Below are positions 33,032 through 40,116 of a stretch of DNA of 64,000 nt, piece by piece. A model generated the notes under the pieces. It searched no databases and was not told the DNA's origin. It was given only the letters and a program-made list of their open reading frames with translations. The position numbers and the translations under genes were made by a program. Source of the stretch: Nitrospira sp. (GTDB lineage: Bacteria > Nitrospirota > Nitrospiria > Nitrospirales > Nitrospiraceae); assembly GCA_024998565.1 (NCBI GenBank), contig JACOEM010000004.1:62001-126000 (forward strand), read 5' to 3'. Every line of letters begins with the position of its first letter. Positions within the stretch are counted from its first letter, which is position 1.

Positions 33032-33769
33032 ATGATACCGCCCCAAGGTGCCATGACCACATCTGTAGCATCGCCCTCATCTTCGAAACGCCCCGGGCTC
33101 GGCAAACTGATGCTGGGGATTTTTGTCGGGTTGAGCCTCGCCGCATTTTTTTACTTTGATCTGGGACAGTACCTCTCACTGGATGGACTCAAGTCCAACC
33201 GGGCTCGTTTGCTTGCATTTACAGAAGCCAACTATCCGGTCGCAGTGGCCCTGTTTGTGCTCGCCTACTGTGTGGTGGTGGGGCTCTCGCTGCCCGGTGG
33301 AGCGATCATGACGTTGGCCGGAGGGTTTCTCTTCGGCAGCCTGTTGGGCACGCTTTACGTCAATGTCGGTGCGACCGTGGGTGCGACGCTGGCATTTTTG
33401 GTGGCCCGCTATCTGCTCAGGGAGTGGGTGGAGCAGAAATTCGGCAGCCGGTTGGACGCGATTCAGCAGGGATTTTCCAGGAACGCGTTCAGTTATCTGA
33501 TGACGCTGCGGTTGATCCCGTTGTTCCCGTTCTTTCTGGTCAATATGGTCTCGGGGCTCACCAGGGTGAATGTGGGGACCTACATGGCGGCGACCTCCTT
33601 GGGCATCATCCCCGGCAGTTTTGTCTTTGCGTATGCCGGCCGCCAGCTCGGCACGATCAGTTCACTCAAGGAAATCGCTTCACCCAATGTGTTGCTCGCG
33701 TTTACGTTACTCGGTCTGTTGGCGCTGGTGCCCATTCTCTATCAGAAGTTTGCCGGTAAGGCGGTCTAA
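33032..33769 (+). CDS. TVP38/TMEM64-family (DedA-like) membrane protein
   Basis: A 245-residue integral membrane protein with about six hydrophobic helices. The VTT/SNARE-associated domain motifs are LSLPGGAIMTLAGGFLFG, a re-entrant loop, LVARYLLREWVEQKFG and LRLIPLFPFFLVNMVSGLT. Family members move or scramble lipids or take part in envelope homeostasis. AGGAGG precedes the ATG. It is followed 49 bases later by a mercuric-reductase-like flavoenzyme; TVP38 proteins fused to, or next to, such flavoenzymes are widespread, so the two products likely act together. Confidence 0.9.
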   Translation: MIPPQGAMTTSVASPSSSKRPGLGKLMLGIFVGLSLAAFFYFDLGQYLSLDGLKSNRARLLAFTEANYPVAVALFVLAYCVVVGLSLPGGAIMTLAGGFLFGSLLGTLYVNVGATVGATLAFLVARYLLREWVEQKFGSRLDAIQQGFSRNAFSYLMTLRLIPLFPFFLVNMVSGLTRVNVGTYMAATSLGIIPGSFVFAYAGRQLGTISSLKEIASPNVLLAFTLLGLLALVPILYQKFAGKAV

Positions 33770-33818: not shown

Positions 33819-35372
33819 ATGAACGCGCCTGTCCAAAGCTTGGTCCTGCCGGATGACGAACACAACCGGCGGTTGGTGGAGAATGTGCACCCCTCCGGCT
33901 GGGCGAATCCCGAGCCTCTCGGTCGCTACAACATGGTTGTAGTCGGCGCCGGCACTGCGGGGCTGATCACGGCGGTGGTGGCGGCGGGTTTGGGCGCAAA
34001 GGTCGCGCTGATCGAACGCCATCTGATGGGAGGCGATTGCCTGAACGTCGGATGCGTGCCCTCCAAGGCCCTGATTCGTGCGGCCAATGCTTGGGCGCAG
34101 TTGCGGGATGCCTCGGTCTTCGGGCTGCATCTCCCGCCGGGGGTGACTCGTGACTTCGGTGCGGTAATGGCCAGGATGCGAAAATTGCGCGCCGGGATCA
34201 GCCATGTGGATTCGGCTCATCGCTACACGTCGCTGGGGGTCGATGTCTATATCGGGCAGGCTCGCTTCACTGGCCGGGATGCCGTGGCGGTGGAGGGCCC
34301 ATCGGGAAATCGGACGCTGACTTTCGTCAATGCGGCAGTCTGTACCGGGGCAAGGGCTTCGGCGCCGGCCATCCCTGGGTTGGCAGAGGCGGGATACCTC
34401 ACCAATGAAACGGTGTTTTCGCTGACGGAGTTGCCGGCGCGTCTCGCCGTGATCGGCGCGGGTCCGATCGGGTGTGAACTGGCGCAGGCCTTCGCACGCT
34501 TCGGGAGCGAGGTATCACTCATTGAAGCGATGCACGGCATCATGCCGAATGAGGATCGGGACGCAGCGGAGGTGGTGCAGCAGTCCATGACGCGGGACGG
34601 TGTCAGGCTACTTTGTTGCGGGAAGGATCTAAAAGTGGAGCGAACGGCCGCCGGAAAGCGGCTCCTGCTCGATTCGCACGGCCGGCACTACGATCTCACG
34701 GTGGACGAAATTCTGGTCGGCGTGGGGCGTACCCCGAATGTCGATGGGCTGGGGTTGGAGACGATCGGGGTTGAGTATGACAAAACCGGCGTGAAAGTGA
34801 ACGATCGCCTCCAGACTACGAACTCGAGGATTTACGCCGCCGGCGACATCTGTTCCCGGTACAAATTCACCCATGCCGCGGATGCGATGGCGCAGATCGT
34901 CATTCAAAATGCATTGTTCCCGCATCCCTTCGGGCTGGGGTATGCCAGCATGGAGTCGCTGATCATGCCTTGGTGTACGTTCACCGAGCCCGAGATCGCT
35001 CATGTCGGCCTCTACGAAGCGGATGCCAAAAAGAAGGGCTTGGAGATCGAAACCTATACCTACAAACTCAGTGAGGTGGATCGAGCCATCCTGGATGGTG
35101 AGCAAGAAGGGTTTGCCCGCATCCATATTCGAAAAGGCACCGACACTATTCTCGGGGCCACGATTGTGGCGGCACATGCCGGTGACTTGATCGGAGAATT
35201 TTCGGTGGCGATGAAGGCCGGTGCCGGTGCCAAAACGATCGCTGCCACGATCCATCCGTATCCCACCCGGGCGGAAGTCAACAAGAAGGTCGTCAACCTC
35301 TGGCGCAAGGCGCACTTTACCGCGCGGAGCAAGATGCTGTTAACGAGGCTCTTTGCCTGGTTGAGGCGATGA
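33819..35372 (+). CDS. FAD-dependent pyridine-nucleotide disulfide oxidoreductase (MerA/Lpd-like)
   Basis: A 517-residue flavoenzyme. FAD-binding GAGTAG near 43, redox-active CLNVGC (Cys74, Cys79), NAD(P)-binding GAGPIG near 300, FAD motif YAAGDIC, and the dimer-domain IHPYPTRAE that supplies the catalytic His. It resembles mercuric reductase and lipoamide dehydrogenase but lacks the N-terminal metal-binding domain and the vicinal C-terminal Cys pair of MerA, so mercury reduction is unlikely. It overlaps the DUF3047 gene. The ORF extends upstream to 33570 but homology starts at 33819. Confidence 0.92.
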   Translation: MNAPVQSLVLPDDEHNRRLVENVHPSGWANPEPLGRYNMVVVGAGTAGLITAVVAAGLGAKVALIERHLMGGDCLNVGCVPSKALIRAANAWAQLRDASVFGLHLPPGVTRDFGAVMARMRKLRAGISHVDSAHRYTSLGVDVYIGQARFTGRDAVAVEGPSGNRTLTFVNAAVCTGARASAPAIPGLAEAGYLTNETVFSLTELPARLAVIGAGPIGCELAQAFARFGSEVSLIEAMHGIMPNEDRDAAEVVQQSMTRDGVRLLCCGKDLKVERTAAGKRLLLDSHGRHYDLTVDEILVGVGRTPNVDGLGLETIGVEYDKTGVKVNDRLQTTNSRIYAAGDICSRYKFTHAADAMAQIVIQNALFPHPFGLGYASMESLIMPWCTFTEPEIAHVGLYEADAKKKGLEIETYTYKLSEVDRAILDGEQEGFARIHIRKGTDTILGATIVAAHAGDLIGEFSVAMKAGAGAKTIAATIHPYPTRAEVNKKVVNLWRKAHFTARSKMLLTRLFAWLRR

Positions 35373-36118
35373 GGGGACAGGTGATGCGGCTCGGGATTGG
35401 CCTGCTCCTGTGCTTGTCGGGCGCTGCGATCGCCGCACATGCGCAGGGCTCTATGAAGCTGGAGGTCGGACAGTTTTCGATCGCTACTGAAGGCGTCACG
35501 TTGCCCGAGGGATGGACACCGTTGACGTTTAAGAAGATCGAACGGCACACAAGATATGAGGTGGTGAAGGACGGGCCGGTTTCCGTGGTGAAGGCTGTGA
35601 GCGAGGCATCTGCCTCAGGCCTGACGAAAGCCGTGGCGATTGATCCGCATGAATATCCGATTGTGCGCTGGCGATGGAAGGTGGAGAATCTGCTGCAAAA
35701 GGGCAGTGTGAACCGCAAGGACGGTGATGACTATCCGGCACGGCTTTACATTACCTTTGCCTATGAGCCGGACAAGGTAAGTTTTGGAAGAAAGCTGAAA
35801 TACAAGGCCGGTCGGGCGCTGTTCGGAGATATTCCGATCGGCGCCTTGAACTACATCTGGGACGGCAAGAGCCCGGTCGGGACGGTGGTGGACAATGCCT
35901 TTACCGACTTTGCGAAGATGATTGTGGTGGAGAGCGGGCCGCAGCGCATCGGCACGTGGGTCGAGGAAGAGCGCAATGTGTATGAAGATTATCGAGTGGC
36001 CTTCGGCGAAGAGCCGCCGGCGATCAGCGGCGTCGCGATTATGAGCGATACGGATAACACGAAGGAACGGGCCGTGGCCTATTACGGTGACATCGTCTTC
36101 GTCAAGGCGTTGAAGTGA
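35369..36118 (+). CDS. DUF3047 family secreted protein
   Basis: A 249-residue protein with signal peptide (MRLGIGLLLCLSG... cleaved after AHA). The DUF3047 domain fills the rest: GWTPLTFKKIERHTRYEVV, the YPIVRWRWKVEN motif, DYPARLYITFAYEP, and AIMSDTDNT with YYGDIVF at the end; a galactose-binding-like beta fold is likely. The ATG at 35369 overlaps the previous stop; ATG 35384, behind GAGGGG, is an equally good start. The family often travels with TVP38 and flavoenzyme genes, as here. Function unknown. Confidence 0.85.
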   Translation: MRGQVMRLGIGLLLCLSGAAIAAHAQGSMKLEVGQFSIATEGVTLPEGWTPLTFKKIERHTRYEVVKDGPVSVVKAVSEASASGLTKAVAIDPHEYPIVRWRWKVENLLQKGSVNRKDGDDYPARLYITFAYEPDKVSFGRKLKYKAGRALFGDIPIGALNYIWDGKSPVGTVVDNAFTDFAKMIVVESGPQRIGTWVEEERNVYEDYRVAFGEEPPAISGVAIMSDTDNTKERAVAYYGDIVFVKALK

Positions 36119-36225: not shown

Positions 36226-36639
36226 TTATTGAACTGAATTTGCGAAGCCACCGTGGGTGATTTCAGCCCGAATGGTGTCGCCCACTTTCTTGTTACCCCG
36301 GAGGTGCTTGGTTCCCTGTCCGACATGCACCTTCATTTGGCTGCCATCGAAGTCTTCGACTGTGTACGTCTCGCCGTGAATTTCTTTGACGGTGCCGCCC
36401 ACGGTCTTCCATGCGACTCCGGGTTTGGAGTCATGTTGCCCGGGTTTCGGAGCCGGGGGTTGCTCAGGGACTGATCCCAACAGTGAGGCAGCCGCGGCTG
36501 CCGAGGTGGTGGTCGCATGGTTCGAATGTTTGCCGGCCTTCTCCTTGTCCTTTGCCGATGCCGGAGCCACGACAAAAGCGACGGTGGCGAGGGTGGCCGC
36601 GGCGATGGTGAGTATCGAAGCCTGGAGCTTGGTGTTCAT
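36226..36639 (-). CDS. secreted small protein, unknown function
   Basis: A 137-residue protein with GGGAGGA upstream and a signal peptide ending at APASA (about residue 29). A low-complexity Ala/Ser/Pro/Lys spacer (30-75) is followed by a compact beta domain (about 78-130): VGGTVKEIHGETYTVEDFDG, then VHVGQGTKHLRG and VGDTIRAEIT. This is a small OB-like barrel pattern seen in other periplasmic proteins of unknown role. No Cys. Confidence 0.72.
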   Translation of the reverse strand: MNTKLQASILTIAAATLATVAFVVAPASAKDKEKAGKHSNHATTTSAAAAASLLGSVPEQPPAPKPGQHDSKPGVAWKTVGGTVKEIHGETYTVEDFDGSQMKVHVGQGTKHLRGNKKVGDTIRAEITHGGFANSVQ

Positions 36640-36839
36640 AACAATCCTCCCTGGGATGAGTCAGGCTGCAGTGTCGAGAGTCATTCAGCAAACCGTATGC
36701 CTGGAAACCGGTTGCCTGCAGTGCCGAATCGCCTGGATTGGTGCCGATTGTGTCGCGTTGTGCTGAGTCGGATGAGGTGGAGCCGGAGGAAAATGGCAAC
36801 AGGTGTTCAAATGTGGTCAGGCCGACCGGGGAATCCACG

Positions 36840-37838
36840 ATGACGAGGAAGCCCCCGCTGGCCATGATTGCCGACTGTGCCCGGCCGTTGGCAAATCTCT
36901 TACGGGGGCGGCCGGTCCTCGCCACGTTTCAGGTGACCCTGCGTTGTAACTCCGCCTGTGGCTACTGCGATCTTCCTCTGAACCAGGGACGGTATGAACT
37001 GACGCGAGAGGAGATCCGGGGCATCTTTGGACAGCTCTATACCGAAGGCATCAGGTTCGTGCTTGTTCAGGGGGGTGAGCCGCTCCTACGCACGGACCTC
37101 GTCGACATTCTGTCGGATCTTTCCTCGTTGGGGTTGCAGGTGACCGTGATCACCAATGGGACCAGGCTGACTCCTGACCTTGTTGCGCAGTGTGCTTCGT
37201 TGCGCTTACCGGTGTCGATCAGTCTGGACACGCTCGATCGTGCTCGCTACCGACAGATACGCGGGGCCGATCAGTTGCCTCAAGTCCTGTCCGGACTCAA
37301 TCTCTTGGCACGGTATCCCTTCCCTAAATTCCTTACCTGCATCGTGAGCGAAGCCAATCGCGACGAGGTGCCGGACGTCGTGCGATTCGCACGGCGGCAC
37401 GGTTTCATTCCCGTGGTGGGAGCCTACCACTGGAACGTGGGCCTTTACGGCAAAGAGGATTCTGCGTTGATGTACGATCGTTCGGCAGCGATCCGTGTGT
37501 TCGAACAGCTGTTGAAGGAAGACCTGATCCCTCCCGGGTATTTTCGACACTTCGTCAAGGACAGCGCCGTCTGGTTGCGGGGAGAACGGCTCGAGCCCTG
37601 TGACGCCGGCCGGTATAGCATTGCCATCGATGCGTCCGGCCAGGTCTCAGCCTGCTTGGCGATGCCGGCGGTGGGGAACCTGCGCGAGGTGCCCTACCGG
37701 GAGATCCTCGGTCGCTTCGACCGGAGCCAGATTCAAGCCTGTTCAGATGGGTCCTCATGCAACCGTCTCGATGGGCGCGTGGTGGGGACGATCCTGAGAC
37801 ATCCGATCACGGCATGGCGGACTCCGGTGCGGTTTTAA
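36840..37838 (+). CDS. radical SAM enzyme with SPASM-like tail
   Basis: A 332-residue enzyme. The 4Fe-4S motif is CNSACGYC (Cys36, Cys40, Cys43); GGEP-like QGGEPLLR binds SAM, and ISLDTLDRARYRQIRG is typical of the MoaA/PqqE/BtrN subgroup. The C-terminal part has four extra Cys (PCDAG, SACLAM, CSDGSSCN), suggesting a second cluster as in SPASM or twitch domains. Such enzymes modify peptides, sugars or arsenic compounds. It is the first gene of a tight four-gene operon with DUF547, a ferritin-like protein and a glycosyltransferase. Start 36840 fits homology; GGGGA lies upstream. Confidence 0.88.
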   Translation: MTRKPPLAMIADCARPLANLLRGRPVLATFQVTLRCNSACGYCDLPLNQGRYELTREEIRGIFGQLYTEGIRFVLVQGGEPLLRTDLVDILSDLSSLGLQVTVITNGTRLTPDLVAQCASLRLPVSISLDTLDRARYRQIRGADQLPQVLSGLNLLARYPFPKFLTCIVSEANRDEVPDVVRFARRHGFIPVVGAYHWNVGLYGKEDSALMYDRSAAIRVFEQLLKEDLIPPGYFRHFVKDSAVWLRGERLEPCDAGRYSIAIDASGQVSACLAMPAVGNLREVPYREILGRFDRSQIQACSDGSSCNRLDGRVVGTILRHPITAWRTPVRF

Positions 37839-37851
37839 TAGGAGAGAGATT

Positions 37852-38628
37852 GTGATGCGAAATTTCCTGATCGGAGCGCTGATGATCGTGCTGGGGGGCT
37901 GTTCGACGGTACCGACCTCTTTTACCCCCTCAGACCCGCTCCCGCCGGAGCAAGTGTCTCATCGGTTGTGGCAGGAACTACTGAGCGTGGATGTCCGTGA
38001 CGGCGTAGTTGATTACCCGGCCATTCGCCGCCAGGGGCGGCTTCCGCCCTATGTCGCGTTGTTGAATCGAGTGGATCCGGGCGGTTTGTCGGCGGAAGAC
38101 CGGCTGGCGTTCTGGATCAATGCGTACAATGCCTTTGCCGTCACGGGTATTCTGGAGGGGTATTCTCCGGACACGTTGTTCGGCCGATACCGGTACTTTA
38201 TCGCGCGGGAGTACTCTGTTGGTGGACAGCCGGTGAACCTCTACAATCTTGAGCGGGAGATTCTTATCGCCCAGTTTCACGAACCACGTGTACATTTTGC
38301 TATCGTCTGTGCTTCAGCCTCCTGCCCGAAACTCCAATCGTGGGCGTTCGAGGGGCAGCACCTCGATGAGCAACTGAATCGGGTCACGAGGGAGTTTGTG
38401 AATGACCCGTTGCGCAACCGGTTTGATCGATCGAGAAAAGTGGCCTCGTTGTCGATGATTTTCAAATGGTTTGCCAAAGATTTCGAGGCTCGCTCAGGAT
38501 CAATCCTGGCGTATGTCGGGGAGCATGTGCAAGATCCGTCGCTCAAGCAGGATCTTCTGGCCGGCGACTACACCGTGGAGTTTCTCGACTACGATTGGCA
38601 TTTGAATGGACCGCCCCCGCAGTACTGA
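37852..38628 (+). CDS. DUF547 lipoprotein
   Basis: A 258-residue protein, starting with GTG 37852 or ATG 37855 behind AGGAGAGAG. Lipobox LGGC (Cys17). The DUF547 domain is recognised from RLAFWINAYNAFAVTGILE, LYNLEREIL, FAIVCASASCPKLQ and LSMIFKWFAKDF. The domain resembles a papain-like or transglutaminase-like fold with a Cys in the ASCPKL motif; activity has not been assigned. It follows the radical SAM gene by 13 bases and precedes the ferritin-like gene by 11, so it belongs to that operon. Confidence 0.88.
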   Translation: MMRNFLIGALMIVLGGCSTVPTSFTPSDPLPPEQVSHRLWQELLSVDVRDGVVDYPAIRRQGRLPPYVALLNRVDPGGLSAEDRLAFWINAYNAFAVTGILEGYSPDTLFGRYRYFIAREYSVGGQPVNLYNLEREILIAQFHEPRVHFAIVCASASCPKLQSWAFEGQHLDEQLNRVTREFVNDPLRNRFDRSRKVASLSMIFKWFAKDFEARSGSILAYVGEHVQDPSLKQDLLAGDYTVEFLDYDWHLNGPPPQY

Positions 38629-38639
38629 AGGAGTTGTGC

Positions 38640-39275
38640 ATGGTGGTGTTGCCTAGTGAACGAGTCCCCATTGCCCGGCTGCTGACGTTTCTTGAACATG
38701 GCGAAAGGATGGCGCACCTCTGTGCGCAAAGCCAGGCGGCGTTGGCTCCCGACTTGAAGGCGCGCCGTTTTCTCACGACCCAGGCACGTCAGGAGGCGAT
38801 GCATGCGGTAGTGTTTCGTGGCGCCATCGGCTGGCTTGCGCCACGCCACCTCGGCGATGCTCCGTTCCTGCCGGCTCTTGAGGACTATCGCCGGCTTCTC
38901 ACTGAGGCGCTTGAACGTGGCGATTGGCTGGAGAGTATTCTGGCTGAACAGGTGATCCTCGAAGGACTGGGGGAGGCAATTCTGACCCGGATCGAGGGCG
39001 GCCTTGAAAAGCGGCAGGCGCCGTTTCGCCGGTTGCGCCGGGTTTTGCTGCACCAGGAAGAGGCTCATCATGACTTCGGGCGGCGTGTCTTGGAGCGCGC
39101 GATGGTGGACGGACACAGGGAGTTGGAGGCTCTCCGTCTGCGCACGCAGGACTATCTGGCATTGACTGACTCGATGGTGTTGACGCTCTGCGACCTCTTC
39201 GAGACGATCGAGGAAGATGCCTCCGCCTGGGCGGCGGATGTGCGCACCTTCTTGCCCGTTTGGTTGACGGCATGA
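38640..39275 (+). CDS. ferritin-like di-iron helical protein
   Basis: A 211-residue all-helical protein. GAAGGAG precedes ATG 38640. The helices carry possible di-iron ligands in the ferritin pattern: Glu22, Glu52-x-x-His55 (RQEAMH), Glu108/Glu112 (ILEGLGE) and Glu141-x-x-His144 (QEEAHH). This is the E...ExxH...E...ExxH scheme of ferritin-like oxygenases. It may be an oxidase or hydroxylase for the product of the neighbouring radical SAM enzyme. Its stop overlaps the glycosyltransferase start by 4 bases (ATGA). Confidence 0.72.
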   Translation: MVVLPSERVPIARLLTFLEHGERMAHLCAQSQAALAPDLKARRFLTTQARQEAMHAVVFRGAIGWLAPRHLGDAPFLPALEDYRRLLTEALERGDWLESILAEQVILEGLGEAILTRIEGGLEKRQAPFRRLRRVLLHQEEAHHDFGRRVLERAMVDGHRELEALRLRTQDYLALTDSMVLTLCDLFETIEEDASAWAADVRTFLPVWLTA

Positions 39276-39976
39276 TCTCGGTCGTCGTTCCTGCCTATAA
39301 CGAAGAACGTGCATTGCCCGTCACCCTGCGTCATCTCCTCGATCAAGCCGGCGAATATGAAGTCATCGTCGTCGATGGCGGGAGCAGCGATGGCACCTGT
39401 GAGCTGGTTCGGCAATGTTCCCTCAGCTGGCGGCTTCCAATCCCGGCGCCGCTCACACTCGTGACCGCGCGTAAAGGACGGGCTTCCCAGATGAATGCCG
39501 GCGCGAAGCTGGCACGGGGCGAGTGGTTGCTCTTCCTCCATGCCGATACACTGTTGCCGGTCCAGGCACTGAGTCGGCTCAATGCGTTGGAGACGAATCT
39601 TACTATCCAGGCCGGCGGCTTTTGTCACCAATTTTCAGGATCGGATTGGCGGCTTCGACTCATCTCGTGGCTCGATAATTTTCGCTGTGTCAGGAGCCGT
39701 GTCATCTATGGAGATCAAGCGTTATTCGTGCGGAGGGTGTTGTTCGAGCACCTCGGTGGATTCCCCGATCAGCCCATTCTGGAAGATGTGGCGTTCTGTG
39801 AAAAACTGCTGACCGTCACGACACCGATACTCCTATCTCCCCCTGTCGTTACGGATGCCCGCAAGTTTCTCAAGATGGGCGTCTGGCGAAGTTTTGTTCG
39901 CGTGTTGTTGATCATTCTGCACGTGGAGTTCAAGCTGCCCTACCTCCCGCGGGTCTTTTTTCAGGATATTCGCTGA
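39272..39976 (+). CDS. GT2 glycosyltransferase, TIGR04283-like
   Basis: A 234-residue family 2 glycosyltransferase. SVVVPAYNEE opens the nucleotide-binding fold; VVDGGSSDGT and FLHADT carry the metal-binding acids; GGFPDQPILEDVAFCEKL is the acceptor-site loop. The pattern QMNAGAKLARGEWLLFLHADT and GDQALFVRR is that of the TIGR04283 group, which is found in arsenosugar-type clusters. No TM helices until a hydrophobic C-terminus (VLLIILHVEF). Last gene of the radical SAM operon, coupled to the ferritin-like gene. The sugar and acceptor are unknown. Confidence 0.87.
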   Translation: MISVVVPAYNEERALPVTLRHLLDQAGEYEVIVVDGGSSDGTCELVRQCSLSWRLPIPAPLTLVTARKGRASQMNAGAKLARGEWLLFLHADTLLPVQALSRLNALETNLTIQAGGFCHQFSGSDWRLRLISWLDNFRCVRSRVIYGDQALFVRRVLFEHLGGFPDQPILEDVAFCEKLLTVTTPILLSPPVVTDARKFLKMGVWRSFVRVLLIILHVEFKLPYLPRVFFQDIR

Positions 39977-40116
39977 TCTCTGGTTCATCGTGCATAACTT
40001 GCTGTGGCGTCATTTCACGGAGGTCTTTGGAAACCGCCATTTCGATTGTCAACCAGCCGGCGTCCTTGTACGTTGGAGCGGATGACAGTGCAGCGGGGGC
40101 AACCAAAGGAGGATGT

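Follow-up and report, generated by a model that had tools for sequence, protein, structure and literature searches.

What does a bacterium of the genus Nitrospira make with four tightly packed genes that encode a radical SAM enzyme, a DUF547 lipoprotein, a ferritin-like protein, and a glycosyltransferase? The genes lie on one strand at positions 36840 to 39976 of a 64,000-nucleotide stretch of Nitrospira sp. contig JACOEM010000004.1 (GCA_024998565.1), which is referred to here as the window and on which the coordinates of the block are numbered. They were described earlier in a sequence-only reading, and the intergenic gaps of 13, 11, and -4 bases given there are exact, the last being an ATGA overlap between the ferritin-like and glycosyltransferase genes. 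Our analysis indicates that the block is a real, selected, and lineage-specific cassette that centers on a new di-iron family. We consider it about an even call that the four genes form a single biosynthetic cassette belonging to the order Nitrospirales, namely an arsenosugar-type variant built around a ferritin-like oxygenase and a glycosyltransferase.

Approximately 85,000 species genomes were scanned with the ferritin-like protein, which gave 81 relatives; the locus counts reported here come from the 80 that were listed, with the testable cases among these 80 loci as denominators. The sequence-only reading proposed co-location in other genomes as a check on the operon, and the genes do co-locate. 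The glycosyltransferase gene directly follows the ferritin-like gene at 71 of 73 loci, DUF547 is immediately upstream at 69 of 77, a radical SAM gene is found upstream at 57 of 70, and the complete four-gene set is present at 48 of 63. This conservation far exceeds chance, and a local coincidence was rejected because the co-location recurs in other genomes with the order kept in dozens of species. Across the block genes, dN/dS is 0.03 to 0.16, that is, synonymous change exceeds non-synonymous change approximately 6- to 40-fold, and the effect is strongest in the ferritin-like gene.

The distribution of the family is narrow. At 45% identity or above, the ferritin-like protein is confined to the same order (295 genomes of the phylum were searched), and a plasmid search for homologues gave only one doubtful match (29%). 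The 80 listed relatives are all Nitrospirales/Nitrospirota records except, by label, a Nitrospinota contig (L138), two Nitrosospira records (L098 and L109), and a Verrucomicrobiota record (L080). The Verrucomicrobiota record carries a 94% identical ferritin-like gene in an identical gene order and is probably a misbinned contig. At two further loci (L031 and L033), the DUF547 and ferritin-like genes are 90 to 98% identical to window positions 37852 to 39275, whereas the VTT, FAD, and glycosyltransferase genes are 81 to 86% identical, which suggests between-species recombination inside the block.

Gain and loss within the genus follow the same unit. Fifteen of 25 same-genus genomes carry both DUF547 and a second TIGR04283 copy located at the block (208–218 bits), and the other 10 have neither. 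Of the 15 block-bearing genomes, 12 have a strong radical SAM match, and the other three (G244, G295, and G307) lack the gene or carry it in decayed form. All seven of the block-negative genomes inspected retain the enolase-like, molybdo-oxidase-like, TVP38, FAD, DUF3047, and DHH/polyA genes in unchanged order, and six of the seven retain a divergent small gene at the block border; only the four block genes are missing. At one such empty site (L194), the flanks are 92 to 93% identical and the alignment stops at position 36819 and restarts at 40027, providing a natural block-plus/block-minus genome pair that is suited to a product search. Block-negative genomes are scattered over at least three separate places in a tree of the flank genes, which argues for repeated losses, or losses plus re-acquisition. 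Because the block has repeatedly been lost as a unit yet is otherwise strongly selected, it appears to underlie a genuine trait by which strains differ.

No significant family match was obtained for the ferritin-like protein in Pfam, NCBIfam, or PHROGs, and, as judged from its sequence, it represents a new family. Weak profile matches (E 0.002–0.3) were obtained to the di-iron families R2, COQ7, and phenol hydroxylase/multicomponent monooxygenases, the first ExxH region included. The Glu and His residues listed for this protein in the table are invariant in 34 aligned sequences, and their E, ExxH, E, ExxH pattern is that of a carboxylate-bridged di-iron site, with E103 and E108 competing for one position. 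The four Glu and two His predicted as ligands in ferritin-like di-iron carboxylate proteins are present, and an AlphaFold2 model (predicted local distance difference test score, pLDDT, 84.6) forms a helical bundle; the di-iron assignment of the sequence-only reading, including its expectation that the ligands be kept in an alignment, is consistent with both. The best match among solved structures is a cyanobacterial aldehyde-deformylating oxygenase (ADO; Foldseek TM 0.78, E 5e-4), with which the model aligns end to end (Z 23.4, root-mean-square deviation 2.6, 201 of 218 residues), and R2-like oxidases are next best (Z 20). Storage ferritins were not among the top-ranked structural matches listed, which excludes nothing. 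Judging from the model, the protein's mode of action is probably that of a di-iron oxygenase or oxidase with the ADO/R2 fold; by sequence it falls outside ADO. Membership in the ADO family PF11266 was rejected, as even an E-value threshold of 10 gave no PF11266 match in the window genome (G000), and a Synechococcus elongatus control scored over the cut-off.

In the radical SAM enzyme, C36, C40, and C43 of the CxxxCxxC motif are invariant. So are the extra C-terminal cysteines to which the sequence-only reading drew attention (C254, C272, C301, and C307), and these four would fit one auxiliary cluster. The SPASM profile PF13186 scores 21.1 bits against a cut-off of 21.5, and assignment to MoaA or another named equivalog was rejected by the NCBIfam cut-offs. 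The DUF547 lipoprotein was correctly identified from the letters, with both the domain and a lipobox recovered. Its model is of high confidence (pLDDT 91.7), yet no PDB structure resembles it significantly at the sensitivity used, and no PDB sequence matches the protein. The invariant H148/C153/SxSC motif of DUF547 suggests, but does not prove, a catalytic or metal site. The TIGR04283 assignment of the glycosyltransferase also holds (214 bits, cut-off 182), and the enzyme belongs to a clade that is split from both the canonical Nitrospira TIGR04283 enzyme and the plasmid arsenosugar enzymes with a support of 1.00.

The core of the proposed pathway would be the ferritin-like di-iron protein and its dedicated TIGR04283 paralogue, joined nearly always by DUF547 and usually by the radical SAM enzyme. 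In an order that we infer, the cytosolic radical SAM enzyme would act on a small precursor through a predicted second Fe-S site, making or priming a carbon radical on it, the di-iron protein would then activate O2 so that the precursor is hydroxylated or cleaved, the glycosyltransferase would attach a sugar to the new function, and the DUF547 lipoprotein would bind or process the product beyond the inner membrane. The combination of radical chemistry, O2 chemistry, and glycosylation that was proposed earlier is consistent with the domains as a predicted function. We tentatively propose, at somewhat less than an even chance, that proteins of the ferritin-like family occur only in Nitrospirales, activate O2 at a di-iron site, and work with their dedicated glycosyltransferase to make a novel glycosylated compound, either a metabolite or a lipid, that has no connection to arsenic.

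Several points weigh against a single cassette with this chemistry. An ADO-like fold is no proof of oxygenase activity. The radical SAM gene, the block member most often missing, is lacking at 13 of 70 loci and exists only as a decayed copy in G307. Since DUF547, the ferritin-like gene, and the glycosyltransferase gene are retained in most such loci, N. moscoviensis (L124) among them, it is not required by every version of the pathway. Outside Nitrospiraceae, the gene order differs, with a cassette for a ribosomally synthesized and post-translationally modified peptide (RiPP) inserted, and the loss of the block as a unit could partly reflect a single deletion-prone segment.

The genes just before the block were read earlier as a TVP38 protein, a MerA/Lpd-like flavoenzyme, and a DUF3047 protein. 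All three are present as described. The flavoenzyme scores under the MerA and lipoamide-dehydrogenase cut-offs and is of the PRK06370 type. However, a minus-strand gene for a small secreted protein, which had gone unmentioned, sits between this trio and the block. Because the trio survives in same-genus genomes without the block, it is best regarded as an independent module; it was rejected as an obligate part of the block, and the proposed membrane-side role of the TVP38/flavoenzyme pair is at most optional. Some link between the two is weakly supported by locus L057, where the trio runs into DUF547, the ferritin-like gene, and the glycosyltransferase gene as one operon-like run, and by similar pairs in proteobacterial arsenosugar islands. 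Further TVP38-FAD-DUF3047 trios adjoin MNIO/DUF2063/DoxX cassettes (L201 on G115:C13, and L051/L103). In a promoter and terminator search, signals were no higher than the shuffled expectation.

Table 1. Genes of the block and its neighbors, in window coordinates.
Feature	Position	Strand	Evidence
Radical SAM enzyme, 332 aa	36840..37838	+	Pfam Radical_SAM (PF04055) 1e-21; CxxxCxxC and four invariant C-terminal Cys (twitch/SPASM-like)
DUF547 lipoprotein, GTG start	37852..38628	+	DUF547 8e-27; lipobox LGGC, invariant Cys17; H148/C153/SxSC motif
Ferritin-like protein, 211 aa	38640..39275	+	ADO/R2-like fold (model); invariant E22, E52, H55, E103, E108, E140, H143
Family-2 glycosyltransferase, diverged second TIGR04283 copy	39272..39976	+	TIGR04283 214.2 bits, cut-off 182
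Divergent small secreted protein, left border of block	36226..36639	-	Retained in most genomes without block
TVP38/VTT-domain membrane protein, neighboring independent module	33032..33769	+	VTT/TVP38 domain
FAD/NAD(P) disulfide-oxidoreductase-like protein, neighboring independent module	33843..35372	+	NCBIfam PRK06370 subfamily, 768 bits
DUF3047 protein, neighboring independent module	35369..36118	+	Domain match

Of the alternatives, the one that survives best is that the block is part of arsenosugar or arsenolipid synthesis and acts on the product of an ArsM-ArsS pair encoded elsewhere. The sequence-only reading held that ArsM and ArsS are absent. This is correct for the block locus, as the scanned genes surrounding the block include no ArsS, no ArsM, and no TIGR04282 partner, but it does not extend to the genome. 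Contig C9 of the window genome encodes ArsS (TIGR04167, 450 bits) adjoining an ArsM-like methyltransferase (PRK11873, 239 of 263 bits), and approximately 120 kb beyond ArsS, it encodes a canonical TIGR04283-TIGR04282 pair (TIGR04282, 211.6 bits). The block glycosyltransferase itself scores over the TIGR04283 cut-off, arsM-arsS lies approximately 4 kb upstream of the block at L043, and DUF547 and TIGR04283 accompany ArsS on plasmids of three phyla or classes. One of these clusters, on Acinetobacter portensis plasmid pJNE5-X3, combines arsS, a TVP38-FAD fusion, DUF547, TIGR04283, TIGR04282, and a methyltransferase. However, same-genus genomes such as G143, G169, G208, and G115 have ArsS and a canonical TIGR04283 enzyme without the block, which is thus dispensable for that pair. 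In addition, the block glycosyltransferase falls in its separate clade, and the radical SAM enzyme was rejected as ArsS, scoring 25 bits against a TIGR04167 cut-off of 300. We therefore consider this explanation unlikely.

A lipid or hydrocarbon pathway, with a fatty aldehyde or lipid as the substrate of the ADO-like protein and a glycolipid as the product of the glycosyltransferase, is quite unlikely. It is suggested by the fold, as ADO is the top match and one entry among the ADO matches is palmitate-bound, and by the radical SAM enzyme, for which profile comparison gave a tetraether lipid synthase as the best PDB relative. This latter match is limited to the core domain, and MoaA scores similarly. 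Moreover, the ferritin-like protein is not ADO by sequence, and acyl-ACP reductase (TIGR04058) was not found over the cut-off in 41 genomes, whereas the cyanobacterial control was matched. A second ferritin-like copy adjoins a gene for a small CDP-archaeol-synthase-like protein at L064 (G085:C8), which also speaks for a lipid; at this locus and at L065, the second copy is separate from the block and has a PPDK_N/PEP-utiliser protein as well as the CDP-archaeol-synthase-like protein as neighbors.

We hold it to be decidedly improbable that the enzymes are tailoring enzymes of metal stress that decorate a bufferin-like metal-binding peptide. Bufferin-type RiPP cassettes are MNIO cassettes (DUF692/DUF2063; PMC12452194). 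In several Nitrospirales outside Nitrospiraceae, a Cys-rich bufferin-like precursor, MNIO, and DUF2063 are located directly upstream of the radical SAM, ferritin-like, and glycosyltransferase genes (L067/L139, L068/L144, and L150), and the arrangement is partly present at L069/L143 and L138, with L069 having MNIO and DUF2063 only. The order in several of these deep relatives is DUF547, precursor, MNIO, DUF2063, radical SAM, ferritin-like, glycosyltransferase, which indicates that DUF547 was moved there rather than lost. An island on Burkholderia glumae plasmid bglu_2p (L207) also joins arsenosugar genes including ArsS, DUF547 and a second radical SAM gene, TIGR04283, TVP38-FAD, and two DUF2282/DUF692 bufferin-type cassettes. 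Against this, neither precursor nor MNIO adjoins the block in Nitrospiraceae, the window locus included, and block-positive genomes such as G121, G139, and G179 are without a bona fide MNIO (at most approximately 48 bits). The window genome has its MNIO, DUF2063, and DoxX genes on contig C9. A comammox link could not be read from the AMO profile, which matched nowhere, controls included. Lastly, a role for the ferritin-like protein in storing iron or scavenging peroxide, with the cassette as a stress module that has no dedicated product, draws on the ferritin-like bundle and on ECF-type sigma factors and redox proteins in the neighborhoods of some genomes. It is highly improbable given the end-to-end alignment of the model with ADO and R2-type oxidases and the invariant glycosyltransferase partnership.

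Nitrospira are key nitrite oxidisers of soils and water treatment, and few of their small molecules are known. The cassette ties a putative oxygenase family to DUF547 and TIGR04283, which are widespread in arsenosugar-type islands and for neither of which a functional paper was found. Our literature search found no paper naming TIGR04283, none joining DUF547 with TIGR04283, and none joining ADO with Nitrospira.

Compared with known systems, the ferritin-like protein model shares its whole-length fold with ADO (PF11266) and has what we take to be the same 4-Glu/2-His ligand pattern with similar spacing, but it is only 16 to 20% identical and its partner is a glycosyltransferase. With R2-like ligand-binding oxidases, ribonucleotide reductase R2, COQ7, and bacterial multicomponent monooxygenases, it has in common the di-iron carboxylate bundle and differs in its shorter length and gene context. 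The radical SAM enzyme resembles MoaA, PqqE, and SPASM-twitch enzymes in having a CxxxCxxC core and, toward the C-terminus, four invariant Cys, yet it scores far under every NCBIfam equivalog cut-off. Bufferin-type cassettes adjoin the block genes in several Nitrospirales outside Nitrospiraceae. The arsenosugar-type cassettes are matched by a TIGR04283 enzyme over the cut-off, DUF547, a radical SAM gene, and adjacent TVP38 and FAD-oxidoreductase genes. In the block, however, another radical SAM enzyme and the ferritin-like family take the place of ArsS, ArsM, and TIGR04282, and the glycosyltransferase is a diverged paralogue. Because ArsS and the canonical glycosyltransferase occur without it, the block is apparently not the arsenosugar pathway itself; the recurrence of these gene types together across phyla argues for a shared theme, either metal/metalloid stress or a common class of glycosylated product.

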